DNA from: Bryoerythrophyllum caledonicum
Lineage: Eukaryota > Streptophyta > Bryopsida > Pottiales > Pottiaceae
Direction: 5' to 3'
DNA: 64,000 nucleotides
NCBI GenBank assembly: GCA_963971425.1
Contig: OZ020515.1
Location: 9,130,291 to 9,194,290, forward strand
Shown one piece after another: positions 21,223 through 57,890 of the stretch (position 1 is its first letter; every line of letters begins with the position of its first letter). Under the pieces are notes generated by a model. That model worked only from the letters and a program-made list of their open reading frames with translations. It did not search any database and was not told where the DNA came from. The position numbers and the translations under genes are program-made.

Positions 21223-21801
21223 CTAATAATATGTAGTTGATTTGTCAAGATTCATTATTAATCCTGATGCATCACTAAATGTCTCTAATGTTATCAAGAC
21301 ATTTTGGACAATTTGTTGTGTTTTTGCTAACATTAAGGATGTGTTATCAGTGTATTGCATTACCACTTGAGGATTTTCTGCACCATGAATGTTTATTCCT
21401 TTAAACCTTTGTCTTACAACTTCATGTTTTGAACAAGAACTTAGGATTTCTCCAACTATTAGAAAATTACATGGAGCTAATGGCCATCCTTGCCTAACAC
21501 CCTGCTCGATGTTACAGGTCTCCGTGATTTGTCTATTGACACTTACACGGGCTTTAGCACCGTTAAACAATAAGGTGAGCATTTTCAAGAATTCTTGTGG
21601 GAAATCCATCTTTTCTAAGGCTTTGAACAAAAAATTGATATCTACACGGTTGGAGGCCTTGGAGAAGTCTAATTTCAGGAAGATGAGAGGTTGGTTAGAT
21701 GTTTTAGCATGATGGATTGTTTCGTGTGTTAGAAATATATTGTCTAAAATGAACCTCATTGGTAGGAATGTCGATTGGTCTAGACTGATCAATTCCATCA
21801 A
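21223..21801 (-). pseudogene. LINE reverse transcriptase core
   Basis: It contains LIFLKLDFSKASNRVD (RT motif A; usual D-F-x-K-A-F/Y-D), VRQGWPLAPCNFLIVGE (usual QGCPLSP) and MQYTDNTSLM (motif C; usual YADD). The C-to-W and A-D changes in these motifs indicate that the enzyme is dead. Order and spacing are those of plant L1 RT. Confidence 0.85.
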
Positions 21802-22090
21802 GATGGGCTAGAATCGTACATGGAGGGATTTTGCATAAATTTTATAGGACACGTTGAGAAGGGTGATGAGGCGCCTGTTGTTTAGGGTGCCACGTTCTCC
21901 TCCTTTATGGATTAATGCTATAAGCTCTTCCACCACGCTCCCGTAAAGCTCCCCCAGTTAAAGCCTCCTTTATCATGCCAAGGTATTTCTTGCCGATGGT
22001 AGGCCATAACATTCTATAAAATTCCGTCACAATAGGTTAGGCCCTAGAGCCTTTTTTGAGGCCAATTGTCGCATTGCGTAGGTTAGATCT

Positions 22091-22429: not shown

Positions 22430-22437
22430 TCTCTAGC
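22430..22437. repeat. 8-bp target duplication, left copy
   Basis: TCTCTAGC directly before the hAT left terminus; identical to 27639-27646. Confidence 0.9.
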
Positions 22438-22689
22438 CAGGAATGTCTATTGTGTCGTGACAGGGACAATTTCCGTCACAATGTCACGATGTCACGACAC
22501 AATGACGGCATGACATTGTGACGGATCGTGACTTTACTGTGACGGGGCCATTTTGATGGCAGAAAACACAATTTTCACATTTACCTTCTGGAGAAACACG
22601 TTGGATTCAGAAAGGAATCTGCATGCCACATGTGCAGACATGTCATCAACTGCGGTAAATTCATGTCGCAGTAATTTTCAGCTTGGGCC

Positions 22690-22940
22690 GAAGGAGTGTC
22701 CGCGCCAATCCGCGCCTCACTTTGTCATCGAAGGCTGTCCGCGGGCAGTCCGCGGCCCTTCCGCGCTCAGTCCGCTGCTAGTCCGCGCTCAGTCCGCGGC
22801 CAGTCCGAACCACTGTCGCTTGTAGTCCGCGGGCAGCCCGCGGCAGTCCGCGCGATGTCCGCGGCAGTTCGTGGCAGTCCGCGGGCTGTCTCGGGCTGTC
22901 CGAGGCTGTCCGCGGCTACGTCCGCTGCTAGTCCGCGCCC
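22690..22940 (+). repeat. CAGTCCGC subterminal array, left
   Basis: Five exact CAGTCCGC words plus many one-base variants (TAGTCCGC, CTGTCCGC, TGTCCGCGG) are in one orientation. The array ends about 30 bp before the transposase TATA box, so it can serve both as a transposase-binding subterminal array and as a proximal promoter. Confidence 0.8.
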
Positions 22941-22969
22941 CAACCGCGCCTGCTCCATTTGATTTTCAG

Positions 22970-22978
22970 TATAAAATA
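22970..22978 (+). promoter_or_regulatory. TATA box of the hAT transposase gene
   Basis: TATAAAATA, about 150 bp before ATG 23123 and just downstream of the CAGTCCGC array. Confidence 0.6.
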
Positions 22979-23122
22979 GTGTCGTTCCAAGGCGATGGTG
23001 CTTAATCCTGCATAGTGGCTTTCAAGACCTTGGATTCTTTGTACAAGAATGCATTGCTCGAAATCCCATTGCTGAGGAGGGAATTGCTGACACGTAGTTG
23101 GCTTTGAGTTCAGTGCGACTCC

Positions 23123-24968
23123 ATGCCGCGTCGGAATTTTGTATGGGATCTATGGTACGAAGACATGGGCAACGCTCCTTCAAGAGCAGCACGACAAGTG
23201 AAGTGTCGGTTTTGTTCTCACTCTATGGTTTATAGAGCCGATAGGATGTTGTCGCATATGGGGTACCGTCATCCTAGTAATCTAGGTCGTGACGTCCAAT
23301 TGTGTAGGATGGTGCCTCCACATGTGCGTTTGTTGTTTCAAAGTTGTGATGGGATTGTTCCTAATCGTCCTGATGCTGCCAACGATGTACCATGTTCCCA
23401 ACAACGTGTTGATAACGAGAATGGGATTGGAGTGGAACACTTATTGACACAATCCGTGGTGAACGACCTGGAGCAGATTCAGAACTCCCAAACAAGTCGT
23501 GGCGTGGAATCCGTACACTTAGATAGGGAACCTCGAGAGCTACGTCAAGCGACCTTGCCTGAGGGCTTCAACATTTCCAAAAGGCATCTCTTGGACAAGG
23601 CTTGGTCTAGTGCTTTCTATGAAGCAAACATTCCATTCAATATCATTAGGCACCCTGCTTTTGTAAAAGCGGTTCAGGAAACTGCACGCGCACGAATGCC
23701 CGCCTACCATCCACCGACCTACAATGCCGTACATACGAAGTTGTTGACAAACAAAAAAATTGATGTACAAACGGCTGTCAATGTAGCCATGGGTAATGCT
23801 ATATCAAAGTATGGCGTTACAATATGTAGTGATGGCTGGGACAACGTTCAGAACCGACCTTTGCTAAATGTTGTTCAGTCATGCACAAAAGGGGATGTTT
23901 TCATAGGCACCATCGATACATCGGGAAATTATAAAGACCACTTTTATGTTGCTTCTCAAATCCGACCGTTTCTGCAAATGGTTGGACATGCAAATGTTGT
24001 CCAAGTATGCACGGACAATGCTCCAGTCATGGCGGCCGCATGTCGTGACATCATGCAAGAAATTCCACATCTCTATGTTCAAGGATGCGCTGCCCATTGC
24101 TTGGATCTTTTACTGGAAGATTGGGGCAAAGAAGCATGGGTACAAAGGATTGTTAAGAAGGCAAGGGTTGTTTGTTTATTCATCAAGAACCACCATGCCC
24201 CACAAGCAATCTTTCGAAGGTTATCACCCGATCTTTCTATTCGTTTGCCCAATGAGACACGGTTTGCAACAAACTTTCTCACGATACAACGCCTCCTCCA
24301 AGTTCGCCAGGCATTGGAGCGAATGGTGGTTGATGAAGACTGGCATGCTTTTCTAGCGGTATTGCGCACTCAAAATACAAGGGCACATGCAAAAGGCCTT
24401 TATGCACGACGCGTTATACGCTCGGATGGATTTTGGGATGTTTGTGTGAATTTTGAGTACATGGTGTTGCCGGTGGTACGTGCTCTTCGTGTGTTTGACG
24501 GCAATGCTCCCGCTATGTGTCATGCATGGAAGGTCATGCATGAATTGGGGATCCATGTTTAAGGATTCCGCAATGCCCCGTTCTGCTTGGAACAAGATTT
24601 GGCAACAAGGGCATTAGATGCCTTTAATGCAAGATGGAGGCTCATGATTACTGACCTTCATTGGGCGGGGGCTATGTTGAATCCTTCTTTGCGTGGATGG
24701 GTCCCGTTGCACGAGCATGAGCTTGCGAGACCAATCTTGAATGGTGTTCTTCGGAACCTAGTTACGAGGGAGGATGATCTAGGTTTGGTCCTCAATCAGT
24801 ACCAAGATTTCATTGAGAACAGAGGGACATTTGCAGATTCCATGCAACCAAATGTCTTGAATGTACCGCCCCATGAATGGTGGGATGCCATAGGAGGCGG
24901 GGCAAAGCAATTGCAGATTATAGCAAGACGCATCCTTGCTCAAGTATGTTCTGCTTCGGCATGCGAAC
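23123..24968 (+). pseudogene. hAT transposase (BED finger, DUF659, hATC)
   Basis: Start ATG 23123 (MPRRNFVWDLWYEDMG). A BED zinc finger at about residues 33-52 has CRFC and H-x-x-Y-R-H. The DUF659 catalytic region follows at about residues 195-330, with KYGVTICSDGWDNVQNRPL, VCTDNAPVM and GCAAHCLDLLLEDW; the Asp residues of the first two motifs fit the RNase H-like DDE centre. After an in-frame TAA at 24560-24562 the same frame continues with the C-terminal dimerisation domain (WWDAIGGGAKQLQIIARRI ... SASACE), which runs into the N gap. The stop removes the dimerisation domain, so this copy is probably dead unless read through. Confidence 0.9.
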
Positions 24969-25168
24969 NNNNNNNNNNNNNNNNNNNNNNNNNNNNNNNN
25001 NNNNNNNNNNNNNNNNNNNNNNNNNNNNNNNNNNNNNNNNNNNNNNNNNNNNNNNNNNNNNNNNNNNNNNNNNNNNNNNNNNNNNNNNNNNNNNNNNNNN
25101 NNNNNNNNNNNNNNNNNNNNNNNNNNNNNNNNNNNNNNNNNNNNNNNNNNNNNNNNNNNNNNNNNNNN
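24969..25168. other. Assembly gap, 200 N
   Basis: Exactly 200 N. It hides the end of the transposase and the beginning of the kinase-like ORF, so whether they are separate genes or a fusion cannot be seen. Confidence 0.99.
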
Positions 25169-25202
25169 ACAAGAAAAGAGCAAGGACAAGCCATTTGGAT
25201 GC

Positions 25203-26601
25203 AATGAGCAAGGAATTTAAGTGCAGGGTTGTAGCAGATATATTATTTTGGATGATAGAGAAAGGTCTATCCAAGTTGGAGAAACGGTACTTGTGTAACG
25301 GCGCTACAGGACTAGAAGCTATGGAGGCAAGATTGATACTCATTATCCAAAATATTGCCAATGAAGTAAATTTTCGCGAAGATAAATTGAGACATTCAAT
25401 GGATACATGGCCCAGCTTGTTTGCCAAACAAGCTATTCACAACCCCGTGAAGACTATTTGGGATGTCTATTACAAGGAAGATGTAAGCGAACAAGCAATG
25501 GAAGTGAAGTTATTGTTTGAGAGACTCAAAGAGGGGGTAGAAGCAATCAAGCCGAAAGGGAGAACTAACCTCGCTATTCCTTGGATTGATCAAGATTTGG
25601 TTGCGCGGGTTGCGAGTAGAGGTCGTGAAGGTGTAGTGTGGCTTCCAATGCATGCGGAGGTAAAGGCGTTGGATACTAGAAATTATGAAGGAGGCTTTGG
25701 AGTTGTCCGTCGTGTCAGTATTGACGGTGTAAGTTGCATTCCAGCACACATGGAGTTTGCGGGGAAAACAATGAAGGAGGATAGTCGTGAAAAAAACCGG
25801 GAGAAATGTTCAATTGAGGCGTTAGCATGTCGAGTGGACCATGCAGGGGTTATAAAAATCCAGTACCTGGATAGAAGAACACACGAGTCGTATACTCTAT
25901 GGTGGAACGGTGGCTCACTAGCATCTATTTGGAGGATCGATTCAAAATATGAGGAGGAACACGAAGATGATATTCTTAAAACAGCTGGAATCAACCTTGA
26001 GGCTCGTATGGAACTATGCGTGTATCGTAAAAATCGGGCCTATTTAGCATGGGCACTACCGTGCATCATGGATGTGATACTTTGCCAGCGCATTTTGCAC
26101 AACGACTTAAGCCCCAACAATGTTATGCTTCATTTTCCGCAAGAGAAAAAAGATGTAGTGTACATCGGAGTGTGTGATTGGGGAATGGCATCATGGGACG
26201 GCGAAGACAAGATGTCAAACTACAGTCGACCCTCTAGTACAGAGCTCGGTGCTTTCCGAGCTAAGTATCGTCATGCTGCCCCCGAGCTATTCCATGTATA
26301 TGGGAAGCCCGGAATACCAACGTCACCGAGGAGAATGGGAATAAAACATAAGCACAACCATAGATCTGAGGCGTATGCAGTGGGGTACTTGGCAAGGAGG
26401 ATCTACAACCGCGATTGCTCTTCAAGCTTGTTCCAAAAGAACAAAGATCTGAGTTCATTGTCCAAGCCATTTGAGCAAGCCATGGACGAGTTGTTGAAAC
26501 CCGATCCACTAGAGAGATCAACCGTCACGCATGTAGTAGACTTGTTGAAAGGACCGCCCTACAACCTAGCTACACCATGGGATTTCTTCCGCAATGAGTA
26601 G
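25203..26601 (+). CDS. Kinase-like protein carried inside the hAT element
   Basis: The frame is open from the gap to TGA/TAG-free 26601; the first visible ATG is 25203 but the true start may lie in the gap. An N-terminal helical region of about 150 residues precedes a protein-kinase fold. A Gly-rich loop GGFGVVRRVSI is near 25690, and a lysine in EFAGKTM near 25760 takes the VAIK position. The hinge region is YTLWWNGGSLASIW, the catalytic loop is HNDLSPNNVMLHF near 26098 (H-x-D-x4-N), the metal loop is CDWGMA (DWG for DFG), and AAPELF stands for APE. All catalytic residues are present, so activity is plausible. This copy looks undamaged. The family is noncanonical; its nearest relative here is 31987-33567. 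Substrate and role are unknown. Confidence 0.8.
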
Positions 26602-26899
26602 TATATAGTATATTGTGATTTCATAGTCCTTAGATACTGTAGGGTATGTAGCATCTTCTCTATGTTGTGAAGTGTTGTCTAATTTGTATTCGGTTATTTG
26701 CAAGAAGAGAATGCCTTTTTGGACTTCCCTGTAATTTTGAATGAAGAACACCTTTGTACAAATTGTTTTGAATTGGTCTCCCAATCCGCCCTTTGTATCT
26801 TCAGAAATAAAAATGGAATAACGTAATTAAAAAATATCCTAACTACCATATCAGCGCTCCCCCACTCCCAATCCGCGTTGCATTGGCGCCCCCACACCT

Positions 26900-27345
26900 A
26901 GGCCGGTGCGAGTCCGCGATCAGTCCGCGGCCAGTCCGCGGCAGTGACCGCGATCAGTCCGCAGAAGTGTTCGCAGCCAGTCCGCGGCAATGTCCGCGGC
27001 CAGTCCGCAGCAGGGTCCGCAGCCAGTCCGCGGGTTCCCATCCAGTCCGCTGCGTATCCGAAGCCAGTCCGCGGGTCCACATCCAGTCCGCTACGTATCC
27101 GCGGCAGTGTCCGCAGCCAGTCCGCGATCAGTCCGCAGCAGTGTTTGCAGCCAGTCCGCGATCAGTCCGCAGCAGCGTTTGCAGCCAGTCCGCGGGTACA
27201 TATCCAGTCCGTTGCGTATCCGCAGGCAGTCCGCGGGTCTGCACTCAGTCTGCGTGTCCAAGTTCAATCCGCTGTGTATCCGCAGCCAGTCCGCGGCAGT
27301 GTCCGCACGCAGTCCGCGGCATGTCCGCGGACGGTCATCGCATGT
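26900..27345 (+). repeat. CAGTCCGC subterminal array, right
   Basis: About 17 exact CAGTCCGC words in one orientation with variants, partly arranged in higher-order units of roughly 45 bp (CCAGTCCGCGGGT...CCAGTCCGCTGCGTATCCG). It lies between the kinase-like gene and the right terminus. Confidence 0.85.
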
Positions 27346-27638
27346 CGACGTGCAGTCTGCTCTTAAACTGCTCCCTCTGAAAAACCCCCCAACCAAATTG
27401 ATTTTCACTCAAAGGTTAATACAACACAGCAAAGGGTAAAAGTGGTGAGAGACACGTAAGATGTCAATGCCACATAGGACGGCCACGTCGACGCCGAGGT
27501 AACATATATACCATACATAGGGTTAAAGTTCAGCTTTGACCCTAGGTTGACTCTATTGAGTCGTGACGAGAGGGTCCGTCACGACAGGTCACGTCATGAC
27601 GGCACGTCACTGTCACAATGTCACGATAGACAACCCTG

Positions 27639-27646
27639 TCTCTAGC
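27639..27646. repeat. 8-bp target duplication, right copy
   Basis: TCTCTAGC directly after the hAT right terminus. Confidence 0.9.
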
Positions 27647-29225: not shown

Positions 29226-31511
29226 CTAGTCAATATTCATCGGGCTATTAGTAGTGCCACTCGCCCCTGCCTCATTGTCGTGTGCCCCTACGTGCATAGG
29301 GAGATCTTCATCTAAGCCCAATATAAGTCTACGAGACGCCGATCGTGTTCTCCTCGCTGGTCCATCTTCATCCAACACGGCCCTTAGGATTTGGGATTGC
29401 ATGAGCTGGTCGAGCGCTTGTCGTGTCCCTAGACTGTGCACATCGAGCAAGAAGTCGATTCCGTCATTTCGGAAAATTTCTTTCCACTCTGATTCCGATA
29501 ATTGTCTTAGTTCTTGCGGGTCTGGTTGGTCAACGTCGTGAGAAATGCGATCCCCGTTGTCGTCTGTGATGCGAACCCCGTCAACGGCCCACAACCATTG
29601 CCGTGGATGAGGTCCGAAACGAAATTGCTCCCCGTTCTCGTCCCAATGGCCATTAAAGCATTGGTAGAAGAAATTTCGTTTTCCTTGACCGTATTTGTCC
29701 TTTAACGGGATCAAATTCTTGCACACCCGGACAATCTGCTCCGGGTCCCTTTCCCAACCCCACTCGTTTGAGAGGTGTATCTTATCCAACGAGTGCATCT
29801 TCAGTTTCCAGCTCCACACCAAATCTTTTCCCCACATATGTGATTGATCATGAGCGTTCGTCACATTGAACTCCCAATGCGGGGGCATGTATGGAACTAA
29901 TCCAAAAAGTTTGTACAATCGCTCGTGAAAAGGGGCCTTGCACAATGAGCACCGCCGGCGTACGACCATCAAGCTAATCAAACAAAATGGATGGTATAAG
30001 TGCTTACAAGTGCCTAGATGCATCCCACCTTCTGGACCAAATGGGTTTAGACAAATTGAGCAAGTCGTACCGTCGGATACGAAGCTCGAAGGTTGTGGCC
30101 ACAATAACATGGGTTTGCCCCAATGATCGAGGGTAGATGAAACCTCCTTTTTGAAATCCCATTTGTAACGGGACCAATCGATGGTTGTTTGCCCACCAGC
30201 GGTTTTCACCATCGCCATTTCATCCATCTTGAAAAGATCATCTACGAGGGCCCACGATGTCAAACCAAACACCCTCTCCTGGTTGTTTTCGGTATAGTTG
30301 TTGTCGATTTTTTGGAATTCCGCCACCAATTGTCGGGACCAATCGACCGTGACTACGCATGCCAACTTCCATTGATAGTAATGTTCTACCAACACATCCA
30401 AGCGACTTTGTAGTCTTGAATTCTCTTCAAGCGCTTTAGCGAGCTCTTTGCCGCCGTCACCCCCCACACCCTTTTCTTTGTTGACCATAGCTTTGTCTGC
30501 GTTGGTAAGGGCCTCATCAAACGACAATGAATCGTCTTGGGTTGACACGTGTACAAGCACTTCTTCCTCCCGTCGTGGATTCCGATCTTCTGTGGTCATT
30601 GTACTAGTTTGAAGGGCAAGTCGGAGCTCCTCCATATCACGTCGTTGCTGGTCAATAACAATGTTTTTATCATTGACATCAACTCTCAACTTGCAAGCCT
30701 CATTGTGCAATGACAATAGTTCTGTTGTCTTCCCTTCCAATTGGTTCAGCAAGGTTTGGATAGTGTTGGCAAAAATAGCATCAGTAGAGGCTTCTAACCT
30801 TCGATCAACAACCGCGGGGGATTGTACCTGAGCCCCAACTTCATTAACGGTATTGTTAACGACTACGTTAACCGTTTGTTCCGCCCTCCTTCGTTTGGTG
30901 CGCGCTTGTGTCCTTTGGCTCCTTGTGATTGGAACGTGGGATCCGTCAGAGTCTGTATCCGTGTTTGAGGGATCGGTCTCGTACGTGTCGACCGGTTCAG
31001 TCTTCGCCATCGATTTGCCCAATCCGCCTTCTGGATACCTCCGTGTCCCCATTGGAATCAATCCATTTGCCGGAGAAGGAACTCTTATGCTATCTCCCAT
31101 GGCTTTCAAGGTGGACCAATCCACCGTCTTGCCCAACTTTACCTCCGCATGGACACCTCGCGCAAAGAAGAGATTTACTTCGTTGCGTTTGATATAAGGG
31201 ATGTCGTACAAGACCTGGTATACTTCAATGCACCGATTTTTGAACGCCTCGTCGGTGCACTTCCATAAATTTGCCTTGTGAAAGCGTCGGTGATTATTGT
31301 GTCGCTCCTCCGGGAAAGCCTTGTCGATATGGCACCACTCGATGAAGTTTGCGCAATCCTCGAAACTCCATGGCTCCGGAACTTCTTCCCAACCTTTAAA
31401 AGCCAATTTAACAGGATTCCGAAGCACATGCAACCTCTTCCGCTGCTTGTTTCCCGATCGTAGTCGACTCTTGTCTCGTTCTTCTTTATTCATTTTTACC
31501 AGCGTGGCCAT
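29226..31511 (-). CDS. RING-H2 finger protein with a lineage-specific N-terminal domain
   Basis: An intact 761-codon ORF (MATLVKMNKEERDKSRL). Residues about 40-165 form a domain shared with the genes at 57537-55761 and 62005-63237: WSFEDCANFIEWCHIDKAFP, then W-x-C, an E-V/L face, and KTVDWSTL. A basic patch RTKRRRAEQ near residue 210 could be a nuclear signal. Residues about 245-305 form a probable coiled coil. A RING-H2 finger lies at about 482-524 (C-x2-C-x14-C-x-H-x2-H-x2-C-x10-C-x2-C: CSIC...CKHLYHPFC...CSLC). The C-terminal part (WGWERDPEQIVRVCKNLI) is unrecognised. RING fingers of this form are typically ubiquitin ligases; substrate unknown. It shares a promoter region with a kinase-like gene on the other strand. 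Confidence 0.85.
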   Translation of the reverse strand: MATLVKMNKEERDKSRLRSGNKQRKRLHVLRNPVKLAFKGWEEVPEPWSFEDCANFIEWCHIDKAFPEERHNNHRRFHKANLWKCTDEAFKNRCIEVYQVLYDIPYIKRNEVNLFFARGVHAEVKLGKTVDWSTLKAMGDSIRVPSPANGLIPMGTRRYPEGGLGKSMAKTEPVDTYETDPSNTDTDSDGSHVPITRSQRTQARTKRRRAEQTVNVVVNNTVNEVGAQVQSPAVVDRRLEASTDAIFANTIQTLLNQLEGKTTELLSLHNEACKLRVDVNDKNIVIDQQRRDMEELRLALQTSTMTTEDRNPRREEEVLVHVSTQDDSLSFDEALTNADKAMVNKEKGVGGDGGKELAKALEENSRLQSRLDVLVEHYYQWKLACVVTVDWSRQLVAEFQKIDNNYTENNQERVFGLTSWALVDDLFKMDEMAMVKTAGGQTTIDWSRYKWDFKKEVSSTLDHWGKPMLLWPQPSSFVSDGTTCSICLNPFGPEGGMHLGTCKHLYHPFCLISLMVVRRRCSLCKAPFHERLYKLFGLVPYMPPHWEFNVTNAHDQSHMWGKDLVWSWKLKMHSLDKIHLSNEWGWERDPEQIVRVCKNLIPLKDKYGQGKRNFFYQCFNGHWDENGEQFRFGPHPRQWLWAVDGVRITDDNGDRISHDVDQPDPQELRQLSESEWKEIFRNDGIDFLLDVHSLGTRQALDQLMQSQILRAVLDEDGPARRTRSASRRLILGLDEDLPMHVGAHDNEAGASGTTNSPMNID

Positions 31512-31986
31512 GGGTGGGGAAAATTTGAATAATATATGTGATGCAAATGGATGAAGTCCTCACACGACGCCCACAACCAACTCAATTAAGAGGTGGATGA
31601 AGAGGGAGTATGTGAGGCGGGGACAATTAGAGGTGTGCACGATATTATATAGCCAATAGACAAAGCACTGGTCTAGGGTCCCCGGGCAGGGGCGGGGACG
31701 TCTCCGCCCCCTACTGGGCAGGGGCGGAGACGTCCCCGCCCCCTACTGGACAGAGGCGAGGACGTCTTTGCAAAAGGAATTCTACACCATATAAATAGGG
31801 GACATTTTGTCCTTATTCTCTGCCAAGTCCACTCCCTAGGCCTCACGTGTCAGTTCGCTTTGCGGCCTGAAAGTGAGTTTGGTGGGTGATCGGGCTTGGC
31901 CCATTTATTGTACCCAGACTCTTTGCGGTTTTTTTAAAAACCATCAACTTGGAATTTCGGCCACGGTAGGGAGTTGACAATCACAT
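31512..31986. promoter_or_regulatory. Bidirectional promoter with GACGTC palindromes
   Basis: Between the divergent RING and kinase genes. A minus-strand TATA (CTATATAATA, 31643-31652, with ATTGG just upstream) faces the RING gene, and a plus-strand TATA (TATAAATAGG, 31790-31799) faces the kinase gene. Between them, at 31684-31767, are two full and one degenerate copy of GGCGGGGACGTCTCCGCC-type palindromes joined by CCTACTGG. The ACGT core suits bZIP-type factors; that link is inference. Confidence 0.7.
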
Positions 31987-33567
31987 ATGGCGGGAGAAGG
32001 AAGTAGGTCGATGGAGAAGCGCCCAGTATTTATGGACTTGGATGATGTTGATGAGACGGTTCTTCCGTCCACCAACACGGAGTTGACTTCGGGATCATTG
32101 AATCCGTCGTCATCGAGCAGGAAGAGGCGGAAGAAGTCACCAAATCCGGATATGCCCCCGCACGAATACATGGTTGAATGTAGAGGGATTGCCGTCGAGT
32201 TTTACAAGCGTCGGACGACAGGGGCGTTGACGAGGAGCTATTTGACCCACAACGAAGAGGGATACCACAAGTTGACGGTTGACATGCGACACGAATTAAT
32301 GTCAAACCTTGATAAATCTGAGAAATTTAATAATTTCTCAGATTATTGGTTGCATTCGGAGTGGTTGGACACACAAGTGACCGCACTGACCACCAATATC
32401 GTTGCGAACTGGTGTTACGTCACAGGGAAGAAGGAGGATGAGAGCACCTGGAACCTGGAGGAGCGCGCACTAGTGGCGAACATGAGGATGATCCAGGGCT
32501 TCGTTCAACAGTACTCTTCTTCCCATAAGAAGAAACTAGCTCCTTGGAAAGCGACTATTGAGGAACAAATTTTGGCTCACTACGTTGGTGGAACTTTCAA
32601 GTGGCTTGAAAGTTGCGCTAAAGTGATTCCAATGCCAGGGCAGAGCGCGGTGGGTGGCTATGGGGCTGTACGGAAGGTGATGATAACCAAATTGGAAAAC
32701 ATTCCAAATTGGATTTACTTCGCCGGAAAGACTCTGACCAACACCAACGAGAGGGAGAAGCGCCGAAACATCATCAACGAGGCTAGAGGGTGTCCGGTAG
32801 TACATCCAGGGATCATTAGACTTGCGTACATCCACCCGAAAACTATGGAAGGGTACACGCTCTGGTGGAATGGGGGATCTCTGGCTTCTTTTTGGTCGAA
32901 GTTTGACTCGAAAGTGGACGAAGCATTGCCATTTGAACGGATTGAGATGCATCCGAATACCGGGTTGTCAATCCAAGAGCTTCGGTGGGTAAAAACTTAC
33001 CGCCAAAATCGAGTGAACCTCGCGCTATCATTGCTTGTCATTGTGGGAAAATGCCACGACGCAAATTATATACACAATGACATCTCTCCATCGAATGTTT
33101 TGCTCCACTTTGATGAGTGGAAACCCGATACGGTGTACATCGGAATTTGCGATTGGGGGCTTTCTAGTCGGGTTGTGGAGAATGAGCCATCAAGGTATGG
33201 TTATCAATTCAAGGAGGAGCTTCAATAAGAGAGAGAGCGGCGACGGTTTGTGGCACCAGAACTGTTCTATAATTTTGGACCGCAGGACTCCACCAACTCG
33301 CTTGAAGTCATGCAACGGTCACACCTCTACTCGAAGGCAGTAGATGCATTTGCGGTGGGTTGAATTTGTGAAAAAATTTGGAAAGAAGATTGGGACACTT
33401 CGTATTTCACCAGCAAAAACACGGAGCAATATGTAAACTTGAAGCTAAAACTTACAGCGTTGCAAAAACAACTGCTCGAAGAACGGTCTTCTGTACCAGA
33501 TGTTTTAGACACATTAATGAAACCCCCCCACAACTGGACTATGCCTCTATGTTGTTACCGACAATAG
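31987..33567 (+). pseudogene. Kinase-like gene paired with the RING gene, two in-frame stops
   Basis: Start ATG 31987 (MAGEGSRSMEKRPVF). A helical N-terminal region of about 200 residues is followed by a kinase fold: GGYGAVRKVMI near 32650, YFAGKTL near 32720, PVVHPGIIRLAYI, YTLWWNGGSLASFW, HNDISPSNVLLHF near 33073, ICDWGLSS near 33150 and VAPELFY. The catalytic residues are all kept. It is a paralogue of the kinase inside the hAT element (the same WWNGGSLAS, HND-x-SP-x-N and CDWG words). The frame is broken by TAA at 33226-33228, before the APE motif, and by TGA near 33361; otherwise it is continuous to TAG 33565. The decay looks recent, because no indel is seen. Confidence 0.8.
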
Positions 33568-33980
33568 TTTTTTGTTAATTAGCTGCATTAGTTTCGCATG
33601 TGGTGGTTAAATAGGCAATACGGCATCTTCGTAGAAGAATATGTGTAATTGGCAATTGCCATACGTTATATTTTAATCAAAATTGGATACGTCCAAATCT
33701 TAAATTCTAAATCCGAGATTTGCATTTGTTCAAGCACAAATAACAATTGATACACTATTGATACACTAAATGTGCACAAGTGAAAGAAATAAATTTATTA
33801 TTTCTACAAAAATTGATACATAGTGTAGTAAATGGCATTTAGTGTCCGGTTATGTCACTACACTAAGTGCCTCATTTGCAATTGGTGTATGGGTTCACAT
33901 TTAGTATATACTACAGTAAACATAAATTTTAGTTTACCAACATATGGTCAATAGTTAAACACTATTAACTAATTCATAAA
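33568..33980. other. AT-rich flank, no gene
   Basis: Contains several ACTAAATG/CATTTAGTG words, also seen near 38550-38590. No gene. Confidence 0.4.
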
Positions 33981-34074
33981 GGGGCGGAGACGTCCCCGCC
34001 CCTGCACTAGTAGAGGCGGGGACGTCCCCGCCCCCACACAGGCAGGGCGTGGACGTCTCCGCCCCACCTCCCTC
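33981..34074. repeat. Second GACGTC palindrome array
   Basis: Three units of the GGCGGGGACGTCCCCGCC type, matching the promoter array at 31684-31767. The two arrays flank the kinase-like gene. Confidence 0.75.
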
Positions 34075-34189
34075 TTGCCATTAGTCCCCAATCCTATTCA
34101 CACATGACCCTCTCCTACGTGGCAGCTATGTGGTGCCAACATGGCTGCCACGTCGCCTGTTTTTTACCTAGTGGGTAAGTCAACCCTCA

Positions 34190-34278
34190 GTTGACTTACG
34201 CGGACGGGCGAGAGCTCTACCGGACGGGTGAATCGGACGGACGGGCGTACCGGACGTTCGTCCAGTATGACAACCCTA
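34190..34278 (+). mobile_element. Right terminus of a hAT-type element
   Basis: Read inward on the minus strand it starts TAGGGTTGTCATACTGGACG, then has several CGGACGG words. The TAGGGTTGTC start matches the hAT end at 27638 and the end at 55760. It interrupts the DUF7869 gene B coding frame. The left terminus of this element was not found; the body probably includes the kinase/RING pair, but that is inference. Confidence 0.6.
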
Positions 34279-35525
34279 TGCATCATGGTAAGAACCTCCT
34301 GGAGCGACGACTTTGATCGAAATCGGTTCAGGTAGTATAAGTCCCGATGTGAGAAGGCAGAATCGATGTGAACCTGCATCTTCTTTTGCCGTAGCAGCGA
34401 TGCTTGTGTTCCAGGTTGAGTAAGCTTCTTCTGATCCTGGTATTTGTCACACGTAGAACAACGGGCGAAGTTGTCTCCACCTCTCTTGGCATAGTACTCA
34501 GGAAAGCTCACTCGCCGAATCTTACTCAAGCTTGAGGTTGAGATTGGCGGCAATCCACAATCAGCGAGATGATTATCAAGATGCGGTATCTGATCCTTCC
34601 ACTTAAAACTTGCAGGAAGGACCTTTGCCAGAGCCTTCTCACCCGATGGGAGAACACGGGACTTGTGAGGCATGTGGTCCGCACGTCTATCGAGAATGGC
34701 TCCAAGAGCGGCAGTAGCCACAACCGTATGACCTCTAGGCTTACGCAAACCGGTATTCCCATGGTGTTGAGCCGCATGACCAGCGGCAGCGTCCTTCGCA
34801 TTCCGATAGAAAGTACTCGAACTTACACCCATGATTTTCATCCAAGCATGGGCACAAACGTCCACACCCTCTAGGGTCACAACCTTCCTACCCGAAGAGT
34901 TTCTATGAAAGTGTCTATGAACGTCGAGTTTGATATGATTTCTAAACTGCACAATGGTCTCACAGTACAAGCGCATCCGAAGGACTTTTATTTTATCTCT
35001 AGGATAGTGTTGTACACAGTTCTCACTGCAACAACTATTGCTCGCAACTGCGTTAATGGAAAGAGGGGTCATGAGAAATTCAGCATTCCTGGACACTGTT
35101 GGACGTGTATTCCTTGAGGAATTGTCGTACGAACGGGAGCTCCCACCTAGAGGTCAGTTACGCTCAACCAACCAGACATTGTAAACGTCCCTAAGGCAAT
35201 GATCAAAGAGACTCACACCGTCTAAGAAGACTTGTTGAATAGGCCAGGACTTAAACGAGTACCTCCACTCATCAGGAGCTTCCTCCAGAACAAAAGTACT
35301 GGACACCTGTACTACAACATTCGAATCCCCAATAAGACCAGAGGAACCTAGAATTGCATTAGACCGGACATTGCGAACCAACCCCTCTGCAACGCAAACA
35401 CCCAAACCATTGTGAAGCGAAACAGTCATCCCGACCCAGAGACGGCGAGGAATAACATCAAACTCAGGAAGGTCAGGGTTCACGGGAGCGTCAACATGAA
35501 CATCGTCGTCCTCCGAAGACGACAT
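34279..35525 (-). pseudogene. DUF7869-type transposon protein, copy B, cut by a hAT end
   Basis: Starts at ATG 35525 (MSSSEDDDVHVDAP). The first part (to 35154) is a small domain with PRRLWVGMTVSLHNGLGV. The same frame continues after a TGA into the N-terminal part of a DUF7869 protein: SNSCCSENCVQHYP, VCAHAWMKIMGVSSSTFYRN, AAQHHGNTGLRKPRGHTV, DRRADHMPH, and a FARCSTCDKYQ zinc-knuckle-like segment near 34440. It ends at the hAT terminus at 34278, before the catalytic core. It is a different subfamily from copy A. A palindrome array lies immediately upstream (35684-36098). Confidence 0.7.
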
Positions 35526-35683
35526 TCTGCATTCCAATGAGGTAAATATTAAATAACCATGCCAAATAAGAATGGGTGAATACCTTGTAGGAATAGACAT
35601 CAATGAAGAAGCATATGAAGAGGTAAAGTCTGGCGCTTGAAAATACATTTGATACAAGTGAATTGACATTGAAGAACAGACAA

Positions 35684-36098
35684 ATTTAGCTCGACTCGAG
35701 GTAAACTGATGCGGTATTATATGACAAGTAGAAAATTTAATGCGATTAGTTTTAATCCGAATATGAAATAATCTCAACCTCGATAGTGACAATTTGGCCC
35801 GATCCGACCTGATTTAATGACTATAAGACGCAATGTAATTTTATCCCGAGTCGAGTTAAAAAGACGTAGAAAATAAGGTAGATCAGTTTAGCTCGAGTCG
35901 AGATAAACTGTCCTTCGAAAGAAAGTAAGACAGTTTAGCTCGAGTCGAGCTAAACTGTCGAAACATTATAGTAGGACAGTTTAGCTACATACGAGCTGCA
36001 CTGTCCTACAATATTGAATCGACAGTTTAGCTCGACTCGAGCTAAACTGACAATAATGATATTGACCGACAGTTTAGCTCGAGTCGAGCTAAACTGTC
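35684..36098. repeat. Palindrome array 1 (TTAGCTCGAGTCGAGCTAA)
   Basis: Seven units, near 35684, 35842, 35886, 35931, 35977, 36022 and 36069. The four best extend to ACAGTTTAGCTCGAGTCGAG followed by CTAAACTGT, a near-perfect dyad. The centre alternates between GAGTC and GACTC. The later units are spaced about 45 bp apart. The array lies 160-570 bp upstream of the DUF7869 copy B start. Confidence 0.9.
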
Positions 36099-51121: not shown

Positions 51122-54100
51122 TCACACCTTGTACTCTTTGCATCGGTTGCCCGATGTTCGCGTGGGGAAATCCTCGCCGTTCAGGGTTTGAAGTTGAACG
51201 GAGTTGTTGGGGAAGACCTCCTTCACGAGATAGGGTCCCAACCACAAAGCATCGAACTTCCCTGGAAAATCCAATCTCCTCGCGTCTTGAAGGAGGACTA
51301 GCATTCCCGGTCTCAATGACCGGACCTTGTTCCGTTTGTCGAAGGCAATCTTCCTCCTTCGTTGGATGGCTTCCATGTTTTGGGCGCTCCACCGGCGCAT
51401 CTCGTCGAGCTCCTCCAATCGTTCTAACCGATCGGCTAAGGACGTGGCCATGGACCATCGTTCGGTCACGACCACTCGCAGAGAGGGGATCTCGAACTCG
51501 ATGGGTAAAATGGCTTCAATGCCATACACCAATGAGAAGGGAGTAGCATGGGTGGTCACTTTGAACGTGGTTCGGTAAGCCCATAACGCGGCGGGGAGTT
51601 TCGTGTCCCAATCCCTCTTGGAATCGGTGACCGTTTTCCTCAAGATGTTCACGAGGGTTTGGTTGACCCGTTCGGTGTGCCCATTGGTTTGAGGGTGATA
51701 AGGGGTGGTCTTACGATGATTGATCTTGAACCGGTTGGTCATGGCTTCGATCACCTCGTTCAAAAAATGCTTCCCCCTATCACTAATGAGGATTTTGGGA
51801 CATCCGAACCGGGTAATGATTTTCTCGAACAAGAATTTGGCCGCATGATTAGCATCATTCGTTTTCACGGCTCGAGCCTCTGCCACTTGGTGAGATACTC
51901 GGTTGCCACCACAATGTGCTTCATCCCACTAGAAGAGCTCGGGTGCACTTCCCCCACATAATCAATACCCCACTTCTCGAATGGGACCAAGGGCAAGGAT
52001 ACTCGTAGTGGCATGCTCATTCGAAGGTCATTTCGGGCATACCGTTGACAAGCGTCGCATCGCTTGGTGTACACATGGGCGTCTTGAGATAACGTGGGCC
52101 AATAATAACCCGCACGAAGGACTTTTTGGGCCGTCAAGGTCCCAGAGAAGTGTCCTCCACACGCACTGTCATGGCAAGCTGAGAGGATCGTGGGAATTTC
52201 CACGGACGTCACACATCGACGTAGCAAGCCGTCCACCCCCCGACGGTACAGTTTGCCCCCTACTATGGTAAAGTGGCGGCTATGGAGGCGAACCTTTTGA
52301 CGCTCGTTTTTGGACAATGAGTCCGGTAGAAGGTGGGTGGTGAGGAATTCGGCCACCAGATAGTACCATGAAGGAATGGAGGATACTTTGAACAAGTCCT
52401 CATCTATCAAGGCTTCATCAATGGGGACAATACCGGGTTCCTCTGAGAGGCGTGAGAGGTGATCCGCTTGAAGGTGCATCCGCCCCGGGCGGTATTCCAC
52501 CGTGTAGTCAAACTCCTCTAAAAGTAAGACCCACCTCGCTAAACGACCACTCAAGTCCGCCTTGTTGACAAGGTATTTGATGGCCATGTGATCCACGTAG
52601 AACACTACGGGGTTGAGTAACAAGTAGTGGCGAAACTTCTTGACCGAAAAGACCATTGCCAAGCACTCACGTTCGGTGGTGGTATAGTTCTTTTCGGCGG
52701 GGTTCAATTGCCTACTTGCAAAAGCAATGGGGTGGTCTTTGCCATTAAGGCCCACCGGTTGGCACAATGTGCTTCCCACAGCCACCGCCGAGGCATCACA
52801 ATAGACGTGGAAGGGCAATTCCCAATTCGGGGGCCTCAAAACCGGGTAGGTGGTTAATTCCCCCTTCAAGACGTCGAAGGCCTCTTGGCAATGGGGAGTC
52901 CACTCGAACCTTACGTTCTTTTGGATAAGCCTAGTGATGGGCATGGCCTTCGTGGCATAGTCATGGATAACCTCCCGGTACCACCCTATGTGTCCTAGGG
53001 TTTTTTGTATCTCCTTGACATTCGTGGGGGGGTGTAACTCCACGATAACCTTCACTTTATCGGGATCCGGCTTTCGACCATCCTTGGATACCACGAACCC
53101 TAGCAAGACTCCCCGTTCTACGGCAAGGAAGATTTTCTCGGGATTGAGGGCAATACCGGTGCGCCTACACCGTTCAAAACTTTGTCTCACGCACGTGAGG
53201 TGGTTGTCCTTCGTGGACTGGGTGCTAAAGTCATCAATGAAGACGGTCATGGATTTATGCAAGAGATCTGAGAAGGCATAAGTCATGGCCCTCTGAAATG
53301 CGGAAGGGGCATTACAAAGCCCAAAAGGCATGACCAAATAGATGAACGTGCCCCATGGGGTAGTGAAGGCGGTCTTGTGATAGTCCTCTGGGGCAATGGA
53401 GATTTGATTGTAGCCCGAGTAGCCATCCATAAACGTATAAAGATCATGACCACCTACCTCCTCCAAGATGGTGTTGATAAATGACAAGGGGAAGTGGTCT
53501 TTTTGGGTGTGATGGTTGAGTTTCCTATAGTCAATGCACACCCGTAGCTTCCCGTTTTTCTTTTTAACCAACACCATGGGGGATACCCAATCGGATATCT
53601 CTACGGGTTTAATGAACCCCGCTTGGAGGAGCTTCTCCAATTCGGCCTTGACAATGAGCTGTAGGTTAGGATTCATACGCCGCTCCTTTTGTCTAATGGG
53701 AGTAGTGCCTGGGAGAAGGGGGATGTGATGTTGTGTTACCGCCAGGGGAATGCCCTTGAGGTCTTTGTACGACCACGCAAAAATGTCCCCAAACTCGACC
53801 ACTAGTGCTTTGTATTTCACCATCTCCTCCTCGGTCAACCCAACGCCCACCTTAATACTACGGACCTCATCCTGCTCATGAGAAACCACCATCAACTTCC
53901 AATCATCATGATGAACGTGTGGTTGTTGGGTAGGTCCCTTGTACCAATCATTCGGAACTTGGGGGTATGTTGCCCCCGAACCACTAGCTAGGATACCGGT
54001 GGATGTCCTGCGGAAGTGGAGAGATGGGTTGAGAGGGCCTTCGTCTCCCAAAACCTCCAATTCGTCCCCTTGCGTGCCCTCCACATCCATTCCAAACACC

Positions 54101-54880
54101 GCCGAGGGTTCTAGGTCATCGAGGAGGGGAACTAGGCTAAGTTCCAACCCGGTTTCCCTTCCAATGAGCTCACTCTCCATGAAATGCACGGACATGGCTT
54201 CATCCGCGCTCGAGGTAGGGTGCTCCCTCAACCAGTCTACAAATTCTCCGGTGGGAACCCACTCATAAAGGCCCGGTCCCATGCTTTTAAATGGCATTAC
54301 GTGGGCCTTCGAGGGTTGGGCTCGATCCACCGCCTTGTGGGGCACAAACCTCACCCGTTTAGGAGGCTCCTTTGATAGTACCTCTTGTGATTCATCCTCC
54401 GACGAGCCCATGCAACCACGGCATATTCCTAGCCTACTTGGTTGGATATGGACTGTAGTAGGATTCTCCAGTGGACCATAGGTGATGTTTGGTTTTGGCC
54501 CCCCCCATTCTACCGTGGCATTGGCAATCCGCAACCAAGGCCTATCTAGTAGCAAGGGGTATGCTTCCTTGTTGGAGTGCATTCGGATGACTTGGAAGGT
54601 GAGGGAATACTCAACCCCCCCCGTGGTCACTTTACAACCACTAATTTGGCCTAACGGGGCCTCCGAGCTTTGATTAGCCATGTTGATGATGTACGGTGAA
54701 GGTTCTGTGATGTCAAGGCCTAGTTTCTCCATGGTTGAGAGGGGCATGATGTTCAACCCACTACCACCGTCTACTAGTACATTAGGTACGATCTTGTCCA
54801 CAATCGAAACCTCGATTTGTACCGCCTTGACCTCGATATTGGGGTGTGCGGATTTAATATGTGAATGTTGTTGGTTGATT
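51122..54880 (-). mobile_element. Ty3/gypsy pol fossil (Tat/Athila-like)
   Basis: Read leftward, in order: aspartic protease (LVDGGSGLNIMP), reverse transcriptase (VCIDYRKLNHHTQKDHFP, FGLCNAPSAFQRAM, VFIDDFS), RNase H (FHVYCDASAVAVG, TTTERECLAMVF), the integrase zinc-binding region (CGGHFSGTLTAQKVLRAGYY, CDACQRYARND) and the integrase core and C-terminal region. This is the Metaviridae order of parts. The FIDDFS form, the long LTRs and the lack of a visible chromodomain point to the Tat/Athila side, with moderate confidence. Pol is nearly whole, with about one break. Gag and the 5' LTR of this element are not seen in the window. The good preservation suggests moderate age. Confidence 0.9.
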
Positions 54881-55368
54881 GATGTTGAGTAGAATGCACA
54901 TATGAAGCCCCGGCCTATGGCACGGTTCTAGTGCAATTTTTATTCATGTGTTGTATTGCAAAGTATGTTATTGTGTATGTTGTTGTGAATGTTGATTGCA
55001 TTTGAAAGGGTCTAGTAACTTGGATTTTTACTAGACGGCGTGATAAAAAGTAAAGTAAAAAGTAAAAAGTGAAACCTAGTTTAACTTAGAGGTAAAGTCT
55101 AGTTTACCTAGGTAAAAAAAAATTACTTGAGTTGAAAGTATTTACTTGGATGAATTTATTTACAATTGTTGATCATTTTGCAATATGTACTAGCATTGTG
55201 ATGTAACGGTGATTTTTGCCCATCTCGTGATAAATAAAAGATTAACATTTTTCATACACATTGCGACATGAAGCTCATGCATGATACGAAGTGCAAGGGC
55301 GCGCACGACCCCTGAATTCAATACCCGTACGCGCGCGACCCCAAAGGCCACGCGCCCGGCCCAGCCCC
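54881..55368. other. Flank upstream of pol; GC-rich at its end
   Basis: AT-rich to about 55285, then abruptly GC-rich (GCGCGCGACC) before the gap. No gene. Confidence 0.4.
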
Positions 55369-55568
55369 NNNNNNNNNNNNNNNNNNNNNNNNNNNNNNNN
55401 NNNNNNNNNNNNNNNNNNNNNNNNNNNNNNNNNNNNNNNNNNNNNNNNNNNNNNNNNNNNNNNNNNNNNNNNNNNNNNNNNNNNNNNNNNNNNNNNNNNN
55501 NNNNNNNNNNNNNNNNNNNNNNNNNNNNNNNNNNNNNNNNNNNNNNNNNNNNNNNNNNNNNNNNNNNN
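55369..55568. other. Assembly gap, 200 N
   Basis: Exactly 200 N, inside a CGGACGG-rich stretch. Confidence 0.99.
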
Positions 55569-55760
55569 GCGGAAAACAACGGACGGCCGTGCCGTCCGCC
55601 CAAGCGGACGGAATGGTCGGACGGCCGGGACTGCGGACGGCTATTTACCCCCGGGTAATTTGACAAAACGGGTTATGTCACCGGACGTCCTGATAGGCCG
55701 GAGGACGTCCTCCGTCCTGACGTCTGGACGTCACGGACGTCGAGCGTCCTGACAACCCTG
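55569..55760 (+). mobile_element. Right terminus of a hAT-type element with CGGACGG words
   Basis: Inward on the minus strand it begins CAGGGTTGTCAGGACGCTCG, like the ends at 27638 and 34278. CGGACGG/CCGTCCGC/GGACGTC words fill the visible 190 bp. It interrupts the 3' end of the gene at 57537-55761. The left end is hidden, in or beyond the gap. The candidate duplication is GTTCTCGT (55761-55768); its partner was not found. Confidence 0.6.
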
Positions 55761-57537
55761 GTTCTCGTTCCATGGTGTGTCGTCCACCGATCTCAATGTC
55801 CTCCGCAGTGTCTCTAGTTCCGCTTGTGCCTCGTCCCTCTCCTTATTTGCCACCTCCAACTTCTGTGACATCGATTCCATCTCCCCCTCACCTTCCACTA
55901 TCGCCTTCCCTTTTCCAGGCATTGCTGGCCGTACTTGGCTACTCCCAGCTAGTACTGCCAATTGAACAGAAGATGGCTCAGCCGGTCTTTTAGATTTGAT
56001 CGGTGTGGCATCCTCTGCATCGTTCCCTCCAAACTTGGAAAGAGAAAGGTCGTCAGAAGTTTCAGCGTTGTCGTCAATGACTACCACATCCACCTCACGA
56101 ACCTGCGCATCCATCTTCTCCGACATCCTTGTAACGCGTCTCCTACTGGCCTCCAGCATACGCTTGTATTTTCTAATTCCCATTTAAGGTGTCCAGTGAG
56201 GGTTTCATTTTTATAGGCCTCCTCCTCCATATCCATCACTTTCTGAGTTAGCGCGATCATGTCTTTTAACATTGGCGTTATAGAGGAAGCCAACGTGTCG
56301 AAGCCAACGTGTCGAAGCCATCAGTGGCTCGTAGCACACTCGGAGTGATTGTTGAAAACGTATGAGCCATATCTAGAAGATGAGGAGCCATTGCTGCAAG
56401 AATTTCGGCCCCGTCCACCAAATTACGTGCCACTCTCACTATTCCATGTATTTGGTCCCATTCGTTCGAATCAATTGGCAGATCGATTGGATGACCAAAT
56501 TCTGTTACTTGAGCGCACGCTTCAGCCCACTTAATACTCAAGTCGAGCAAGCCTTTCAACTTATCCTTGTTTGGCATTGTTCAAAGCATTTCTTCAATAC
56601 TGGAAATCAAAGTATCCTTGTCAATGATCAGGTCCTTGGAATTTGGTTCCAATGCTTCCCGCGTTGAAGTGCTTGGCCCGGCATCCATTGTCTTTGGTGC
56701 CATGCCTTCCAAAGTTTGAACGTTTGGAACAACGGTTTCTTCTCCATCCATATTCTCCCCCCCTCGTTCCGCGTTACCATGGTCTTCACCTCCTACAATT
56801 ACAATATTCGGAATATCTGATTATACGGGGTCTTCTACCGTCGTTGTCTCCACACTCTCTTTGGGAATTGTGGTTGACAATATATTGTCGACCACAATAT
56901 CCAAATGTTTGTCAGACTCCATCACAACGGCAACCTCCTCCACCGATGGTTGTATATTCGGCACGGTATCCACCACGGTCATCTGACGAGGCTTTTTCTT
57001 CAACTCCTCCAAAATAGCCTTGGTCATGGTCGATTCAGGATTGAATAAATCAGGAATATGCTTTTGTTTTTGCCCAATCCTAAGCGGATATTGTTTTGTA
57101 GTCGGAAACGTGCTCCAAATCACCTTTCGTTTCAACACGACCTCGGTGTATACCATTGATAGAAGGCTATAATTGAAAAATCCTTTGCTTCTTGGGCGAT
57201 TTCCAAACAAAGCCCGCCAAACCTCCTCTGCACGATAAATGAAATGATCATCTTTGCACATCCACGGCTTGCAAGTAAAGTAAGTCGTATGACTTATGTG
57301 GCAATCTCTTGGCCAAAGTTTATCGATGTGGTACATCTTCACGTATTTCTTGCATGTCTTGGATACCCAGTAATCCTCCATTTCAGCCTCCCAACCTTCC
57401 TCCGCCTGAATGTCTTCATTGTCCAAAATCTCCCACCGTAGATCATGAGTAGCACCTTTTTGTTTGAACCGTTTCTTCGACTCTCCCGTTCCAATTTCAC
57501 TCACATCTTCCACCACAATCTGCTTCTCCGTCGCCAT
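55761..57537 (-). pseudogene. RING-gene N-domain paralogue 1 with C-terminal coiled coil, decayed
   Basis: Starts at ATG 57537 (MATEKQIVVEDVSEIG). Residues about 40-175 are the shared domain: CKKYVKMYHIDKLWPRDCHI, PWMCKDDHFIYRAEEVW, NYSLLSMVYTEVVLKRKVIW, HIPDLFNP. The frame then has a TAA at 56821 and, after an acidic/Ser-rich linker, a TGA near 56578. It continues in frame (KDKLKGLLDLSIKWAEACAQ) to about 56290, where the frame changes. The end (56183-55761) is a charged coiled coil (KLEVANKERDEAQAELETL) cut by the hAT-type terminus. No RING finger is visible. The upstream CCGTCCGC array and TATA box resemble those of paralogue 2. Confidence 0.65.
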
Positions 57538-57617
57538 GATACCGCTTGCTTTTAAAAAAACAAACGCGGAAACTCCGGTATTAATTTGTGAATGAATGGT
57601 TTGGGAAATTAAAAAAC

Positions 57618-57890
57618 GGTTTATACGGTCACAATAAAAGGACCCCCATCTCCTCACCTAGTAAGAGCAACAAGTACAGAAAACTGTAACTGCAGCACAT
57701 CCGACTCGGCATGAGAGGAGAGGAAATGAGGAAAAAAGAAGTGGCCGTCCGCATGTATATGCGGACGGCCGCCTAACCTATCCGGGCGGCCGTCCGAACC
57801 CGCGGACGGCCAATCGGTCGGCCAATGGGCCGGCCGTCGGCCGAGCCTAGCCGACCGCGCCACCCGGCCGTCCGCCATTCTTGCATCCGC
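57618..57890 (-). promoter_or_regulatory. TATA box and GGCCGTCCGC array upstream of paralogue 1
   Basis: On the minus strand, a TATA-like CGTATAAACC is at about 57628-57619. Upstream, at 57740-57890, are about ten GGCCGTCCG/CGGACGGCC words in both orientations, including the dyad GCCGTCCGCATGTATATGCG. Confidence 0.6.

Follow-up and report, generated by a model that had tools for sequence, protein, structure and literature searches.

A 64,000-nucleotide stretch of the genome of the moss Bryoerythrophyllum caledonicum (contig OZ020515.1; hereafter, the window) contains a hAT transposon at positions 22438-27638. The element has matching termini, a perfect 8-bp target site duplication (TSD), and, inside its ends, open reading frames (ORFs) for a transposase and a protein kinase. 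An earlier note on this DNA had described these features, and comparison of the termini and TSD, along with domain searches, confirmed them. The best overall explanation, in which we have moderate confidence, is that this is a giant multi-gene hAT with a regulatory accessory module. The order of parts in the family is almost certainly left end and array, transposase, a first RING-finger gene (RING-A), an AT-rich spacer, a second RING-finger gene (RING-B), kinase, right array, and right end, with at least four genes in 19-23 kb. (This high confidence refers to the anatomy of the family.) We also consider it very likely that the accessory genes are functional for the element.

The element in the window and its copies

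The window element belongs to the hAT superfamily (plant type), as judged by its 8-bp TSD, its CAGG termini, and its DUF659/hAT transposase. The duplicated octamer, TCTCTAGC, lies at 22430-22437 and at 27639-27646. The ends are short CAGG-type terminal inverted repeats (TIRs): the left terminus is CAGGAATGTCTAT (22438-22450, plus strand; the other left ends that we saw read CAGGGTTGTCTAT), and the right terminus is CAGGGTTGTCTAT on the minus strand (27626-27638). Other copies have the same motif. The combination of termini and TSD did not arise once in 300,000 random draws. If the flanks are joined to reconstruct the empty site, no frame over the insertion site exceeds 63 codons. Within the termini are a left subterminal array of ~11-bp units of the AGTCCGCGGC type (22733-22939) and a right subterminal array with the identical motif (26911-27330).

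The 5' part of the transposase (23108-24967, plus strand) has an in-frame TAA at 24560-24562, and its frame is cut by an assembly gap of 200 N (24969-25168); we found no other transposase match in the window. In other copies, the frame reaches up to 1101 codons, and the long C-terminal tail of the protein has acidic, Arg/Gly, and Ser-rich stretches. DUF659 was found in the window copy (E = 2.4e-34), where the gap cuts the dimerization region (0.002, below the cut-off). In another copy (L031), DUF659 (3.5e-34) and Dimer_Tnp_hAT (5e-11) were both above the cut-off. Among the matches listed, the nearest named transposase comes from a moss, Ceratodon purpureus (53% identity, covering 54% of the query), and the other named ones come from seed plants, plus one entry labelled as a bacterial metagenome-assembled genome.

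On the other side of the gap, the kinase ORF (25171-26601, plus strand) has 476 codons of a gene of ~650 codons. It encodes an N-terminal helical domain and a kinase domain, and it ends ~1.0 kb ahead of the right terminus. Its match to Pkinase in Pfam (E = 7e-7) falls slightly below the curated cut-off here, where the gene is truncated, and a longer copy is above it.

We searched the 437-Mb assembly (G000) for copies and considered the best 89 of 2032 candidate matches for the kinase, the best 89 of 2552 for the transposase fragment (90 rows; the second piece of one place was omitted from the linkage count), and the best 60 of 3324 for RING-B (70 rows, with 10 second pieces omitted). Counts of matches below are for these sets. 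The kinase matches form two main groups, or clades: A (~80-100% identity) and B (~67-79%). We fetched 20 kinase loci (ranks 2-23, minus two on small contigs). In 19 of the 20, a right terminus with at most 2 mismatches lies ~1.06-1.47 kb past the stop codon of the kinase. These 19 termini are flanked by 19 different octamers, which indicates different insertion sites. In the remaining locus (L015), we did not find a right terminus downstream of the kinase.

The earlier note had proposed a search for further copies that have both ends as well as 8-bp TSDs, and there are five of these (three with perfect TSDs and two with one mismatch). With the window copy, all six copies with both ends have 8-bp TSDs, of which four are perfect. 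The most informative copy (C9; L035-L037) is from clade B. It is gapless, spans 19,243 bp, has the TSD CATACATG/CATATATG, and contains the transposase, RING-A, RING-B, and the kinase. Within the aligned parts, its transposase and RING-A each have one stop codon, its RING-B has two, and its kinase is open. (The ORF at which C9 sits, L035:2-526, looks by eye like another hAT transposase.) The C2 copy (L032-L034) is 19,197 bp from end to end, with GTCATGGT on both sides and one 200-N gap in the N-terminal region of the kinase. Its visible genes are the transposase (broken), RING-A, and the kinase; it also holds part of another RING-A-like gene. In L011, the anchors that flank the C2 gap are 3,888 bp apart and enclose a RING gene of 747 codons (RING-B). 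The other three copies are L010 (TSD AAACCTGT), L028 (GTCAGATG), and L022 (GAGTCCGC/GAGTCAGC), each with a 200-N gap. In L022, the transposase is not visible beside the gap.

These copies bear on the size of the window element. The gap in the window is exactly 200 N, as is the window's other gap, so it is probably a placeholder, and the window copy is probably not a two-gene element of 5.2 kb. At this position, the relatives have the C-terminus of the transposase, RING-A, the spacer, RING-B, and the N-terminus of the kinase, or ~14-17 kb. If nothing was deleted, then the gap in the window would stand for ~14-17 kb as well, with content and length like those of the relatives, and anchor arithmetic on the relatives suggests that clade A elements are ~21.5-22.9 kb. 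The earlier note had viewed the element as having two genes. Both of those genes are present, but the two-gene arrangement is probably an artefact of the assembly, and two RING genes belong to the element as well.

Alternatively, the window copy might be truly short, its transposase and kinase brought together by an internal deletion, with a gap of really ~200 bp. The edges of the gap do fall within both ORFs, internal deletion derivatives of hATs are common, and an ORF that fuses a transposase tail to the kinase (P0004, discussed below) exists in another data set. We consider a short element unlikely, since every short copy that we examined (the window copy, L010, L028, and L022) has an exact 200-N gap inside it, as does the C2 copy, and none of the 20 fetched kinase loci is a gapless short copy.

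The earlier note also asked if the kinase is fused to the transposase or separate. The kinase's two nearest relatives have 647 and 654 amino acids and begin with a leader that is rich in Gly, Ser, and Arg, ends in a KKRAR stretch, and contains no transposase sequence. (In 14 of the 89 kinase matches, the listed open frame has 657 codons, with internal stops in some.) Because the relatives have this leader and an ATG of their own ahead of the kinase, the kinase is a separate gene whose first part was lost in the gap. We rejected a kinase-transposase fusion, as the relatives begin the kinase separately.

Linkage of the genes and selection on them

Kinase and transposase matches lie together much more often than chance would predict. 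A listed transposase match lies within 40 kb of 42 of the 89 kinase matches, while 1.45 would be expected under uniform placement. In 38 of these 42 pairs, the transposase is upstream and on the same strand, and across these 38 pairs, the identities of the two genes to their queries are strongly correlated (r = 0.97). As a control, we circularly shifted positions, using only contigs of known length (69 kinases and 72 transposases). Of these 69 kinases, 36 were linked, whereas 500 shifts gave 1.0 on average and at most 5; with order and strand as expected, the count was 32, versus 0.2 on average and at most 2. Both clades contribute: a kinase lies downstream on the same strand within 40 kb of at least 23 of 58 clade A transposases and at least 15 of 29 clade B transposases. 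(These clade counts omit 2 of the 89, with identities of 58% and 61%.) RING-B is linked too. Among its 60 places, 45 have a listed kinase within 10 kb. RING-B is upstream of the kinase in 44 of these, and in 33 of them its distance to the start of the kinase query is 0.9-1.64 kb. At 25 of the 60 places, a transposase is listed no more than 25 kb away.

Could this be a false composite of neighboring, unrelated elements, with a hAT beside a kinase-bearing element? The window does contain several other transposons, and 4 of the 42 kinase-transposase pairs are outside the expected order or strand. But the kinase is within the TSD-flanked unit in all six copies with both ends, and the circular-shift control and the correlation of identities also argue against a composite, so we consider it very improbable. 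The whole unit would be cut and pasted by the element's own transposase.

To quantify selection, we compared clades A and B by the method of Nei and Gojobori, with only one copy from clade B. The ratio of nonsynonymous to synonymous divergence (ω) is 0.22-0.24 for the kinase (640 codons), 0.28-0.29 for RING-B (712 codons), 0.28 for RING-A (686 codons), and 0.30-0.31 for the transposase (920-927 codons). This purifying selection on the kinase and RING genes makes the extra genes look like working parts. Synonymous divergence is 0.88-0.92 for the kinase, 0.87 for RING-B, and 1.24 for RING-A, versus 0.60-0.61 for the transposase, so the accessory genes look no younger than the transposase. The earlier note had described the kinase as cargo that is mobilized with the element. 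It is indeed inside the unit and moves with it, but "cargo" is too weak a word, because constraint between the clades is as strong on the kinase and RING genes as on the transposase.

Host kinase and RING genes might instead have been captured once and then have hitchhiked as passive cargo, with no role in transposition. In favor of this, DNA transposons often capture genes, the kinase domain has the genuine fold of a eukaryotic protein kinase, and clade A shows weak constraint. Passive cargo seems quite unlikely to us, since it does not fit with ω values for the kinase and RING genes (0.22-0.29) that are no weaker than the transposase's, with the presence of the same genes close to the right end in both clades, at a synonymous divergence of ~0.9, or with a second deep kinase lineage in the window that likewise has a RING gene and a (C/T)AGGG end next to it.

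Other data sets contain similar proteins. A transposase (P0125, 75% identity) and a kinase (P0002, 76%) both have a longest source contig of 15,563 bp, and most simply, they are on one contig. In another kinase, P0004, the first 120 residues share 83% identity with the tail of transposase P0130, which would be expected for a deletion derivative of an element with both genes in one orientation.

The accessory proteins and the arrays

The predicted kinase is of the Pkinase type, as indicated by its conserved catalytic residues and its eukaryotic protein kinase fold. Across 42 sequences, K199 and N317 are invariant, and E216, D312, and D336 are at least 90% conserved. This agrees with the earlier note, which had reported the catalytic residues: the Lys, the αC Glu, the Asp and Asn of the loop, and the metal-binding Asp are all there. 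The motifs are HND instead of HRD and DWG instead of DFG. In the aligned part, the kinase lacks a stop codon in 9 of the 20 fetched loci. Profiles from the PDB matched a spread of general kinases, with no named kinase family singled out, and a comparison to viral contigs gave no match. A tree of the kinases has two deep lineages, with one of each in the window; the second is on a long branch.

RING-A has ~715 amino acids in C2, and RING-B has ~745. In 9 sequences, the RING ligands C496, C499, C514, H519, C522, C533, and C536 are invariant; P0124 lacks an additional His that follows C514. RING-B just exceeds the cut-off for zf-RING_2 (27.7 versus 27.3 bits), while RING-A and the RING ORF of a second relative in the window (29229-31511) are below it. 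These proteins are probably ubiquitin ligases. RING-B is on the same strand as the kinase in clade A and on the opposite strand in clade B. The spacer between RING-A and RING-B is AT-rich (GC content 0.33-0.34) and has no long ORF that is conserved between the clades, just short similar stretches in several frames.

The arrays differ between the clades. The clade A motif, CAGTCCGC, occurs 44 times in the C2 copy, versus 0.34 expected from base composition, and the clade B motif, CCATCCGC, occurs 57 times in the C9 copy, versus 0.41 expected. Across clades, the A motif occurs 6 times in C9, and the B motif is absent from C2 and occurs once in L011. Clusters of the A motif lie in both subterminal regions, ahead of RING-B, and ahead of the kinase (in C2 and L011); the array ahead of RING-A in C2 is only degenerate. 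The B motif clusters in both subterminal regions, ahead of RING-A, and between RING-B and the kinase. Arrays that keep their placement while their sequence changes would be expected from a co-evolving and putatively element-encoded binding protein.

How might these parts work together? The promoters of the kinase and RING genes appear to be next to lineage-specific arrays that the ends of the element also carry, so all of them could be coordinated by one putative element-encoded binding protein. The kinase and RING proteins would then act in trans as a regulatory module. This module might modify the transposase, with its acidic, Arg/Gly, and Ser-rich tail, or it might mark host silencing factors for modification and turnover. 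We suggest, tentatively, that the role of these proteins may be to control the transposase or host silencing. A bolder version, which is possible though doubtful, is that this is a self-governing, virus-like giant of a plant hAT, whose kinase and two RING proteins would disarm silencing or meter transposition and would be wired together by the arrays.

Another idea is self-limiting control: the kinase would mainly restrain or time transposition, for instance by phosphorylating the transposase, and silencing would not be involved. The Ser, acidic, and Arg/Gly stretches in the tail of the transposase would fit with this, and the shared arrays suggest co-regulation. However, the RING partners point equally to turnover of host proteins. 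We consider self-limiting control alone to be rather unlikely.

Several observations weigh against a giant multi-gene hAT with functional accessory genes. First, the window copy itself displays just the transposase and the kinase, and the content of its gap is deduced from relatives; similarly, RING-B of the C2 copy is deduced from L011, not seen in C2. No whole copy that we examined has all of its genes open (the transposase of C2 is broken, and just the kinase of C9 is open), and the C9 kinase has Lys in place of the αC Glu. The structure model for the RING is too weak to be informative (predicted local distance difference test, or pLDDT, of 47.6). Second, 47 of the 89 kinase matches have no listed transposase within 40 kb, and among all candidates (2032, 2552, and 3324, of which the best 89, 89, and 60 were scored) there may be copies that lack the kinase, which the earlier note had named as grounds for refutation. 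For C3, which has an open transposase, the 6.5 kb that we fetched near the expected place of the kinase contained neither a kinase nor a right end; 809 bp match the element's spacer, and the remainder is unrelated to the element. The C3 copy is interrupted or truncated. Third, constraint looks weaker within clade A: the ratio of nonsynonymous to synonymous polymorphism (pN/pS) is 0.42 for the kinase (22 copies), 0.66 for RING-B (15 copies), and 0.74 for the transposase (6 copies). Higher ratios within clade A are expected if many copies are dead. Finally, placing P0125 and P0002 on one contig relies on the equal lengths of 15,563 bp only.

Other features of the window and comparison to known elements

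The window also contains a second, diverged relative of the element (29229-34278). It has a RING-finger ORF (29229-31511, minus strand), a kinase gene with two in-frame stops (31984-33567, plus strand), and a right terminus of the TAGGG type (34262-34278, minus strand; TAGGGTTGTCATACTGG; TAGGGTTGTC). These genes, along with GC-rich palindromic arrays and the terminus at 34278, repeat the layout of clade B. We did not find its left end or a TSD in the window. Some ORFs at 34167-35813 (minus strand) have no convincing match in Pfam; the first runs into the terminus at 34278, and they are possibly another element's transposase.

Farther along, a right-end-like terminus, CAGGGTTGTCAGGACG, at 55760 (minus strand) is close to a 200-N gap (55369-55568). 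The ORFs at 56824-57657 (minus strand) and 62107-63234 (plus strand) resemble either each other or the RING proteins' N-terminal domain, lack a RING match in Pfam, and are perhaps parts of further relatives. Other repeats include a reverse transcriptase like those of long interspersed nuclear elements (21226-21807; RVT_1, 8.9e-18), a Ty3-like pol with matches for reverse transcriptase, RNase H, and integrase (51125-54927, minus strand), and near-identical inverted segments (~44.1-46.8 kb and 48.1-51.1 kb) with tandem repeats at a spacing of ~185 bp.

Autonomous hATs normally encode just a transposase, in one gene and ~2.5-5 kb. The family that we describe resembles Ac, Tam3, and the plant DUF659-type hATs in its 8-bp TSD, its short CAGG TIRs, its transposase with DUF659 and dimerization domains, and its subterminal repeats. 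It differs from these small, one-gene members in having 19-23 kb, at least four genes, and arrays ahead of the accessory genes as well. Pack-type elements, which carry fragments of host genes between transposon ends, are similar in having non-transposase genes between TIRs. Here, though, the genes are long, open in some copies, and constrained between clades, and the transposase is in the same TSD-flanked unit. With ω values of 0.22-0.29, the extra genes do not look like the unconstrained host fragments of a non-autonomous Pack-type element.

The VANDAL elements of Arabidopsis, which are Mutator-like elements (MULEs) with the anti-silencing protein VANC, offer another parallel: a plant DNA transposon encodes an accessory protein besides its transposase, and the element contains sequence motifs. 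They are from a different superfamily, their proteins are not known to be related to those here, and an anti-silencing role is only proposed for our family. Some fungal DNA transposons are reported to have conserved enzyme genes in a conserved order, some with a kinase, and one lineage is in hAT. There, the enzyme is a dioxygenase rather than a RING protein, the kinase is an alpha-kinase in IS3EU, and hAT7 has a TSD of 7 bp, whereas our family has a kinase of the Pkinase fold in a hAT. A limited search of the literature turned up no matching element; we do not claim that none is in print.

These results are a warning that assembly gaps can disguise giant, multi-gene elements as short, two-gene ones. 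If our explanation is correct, then hATs are not confined to small, single-gene units, and some lineages (probably in plants) are multi-gene hATs of 19-23 kb in which a kinase and RING proteins are conserved. It would also mean that a transposon may encode post-translational control of its own enzyme or of its host.

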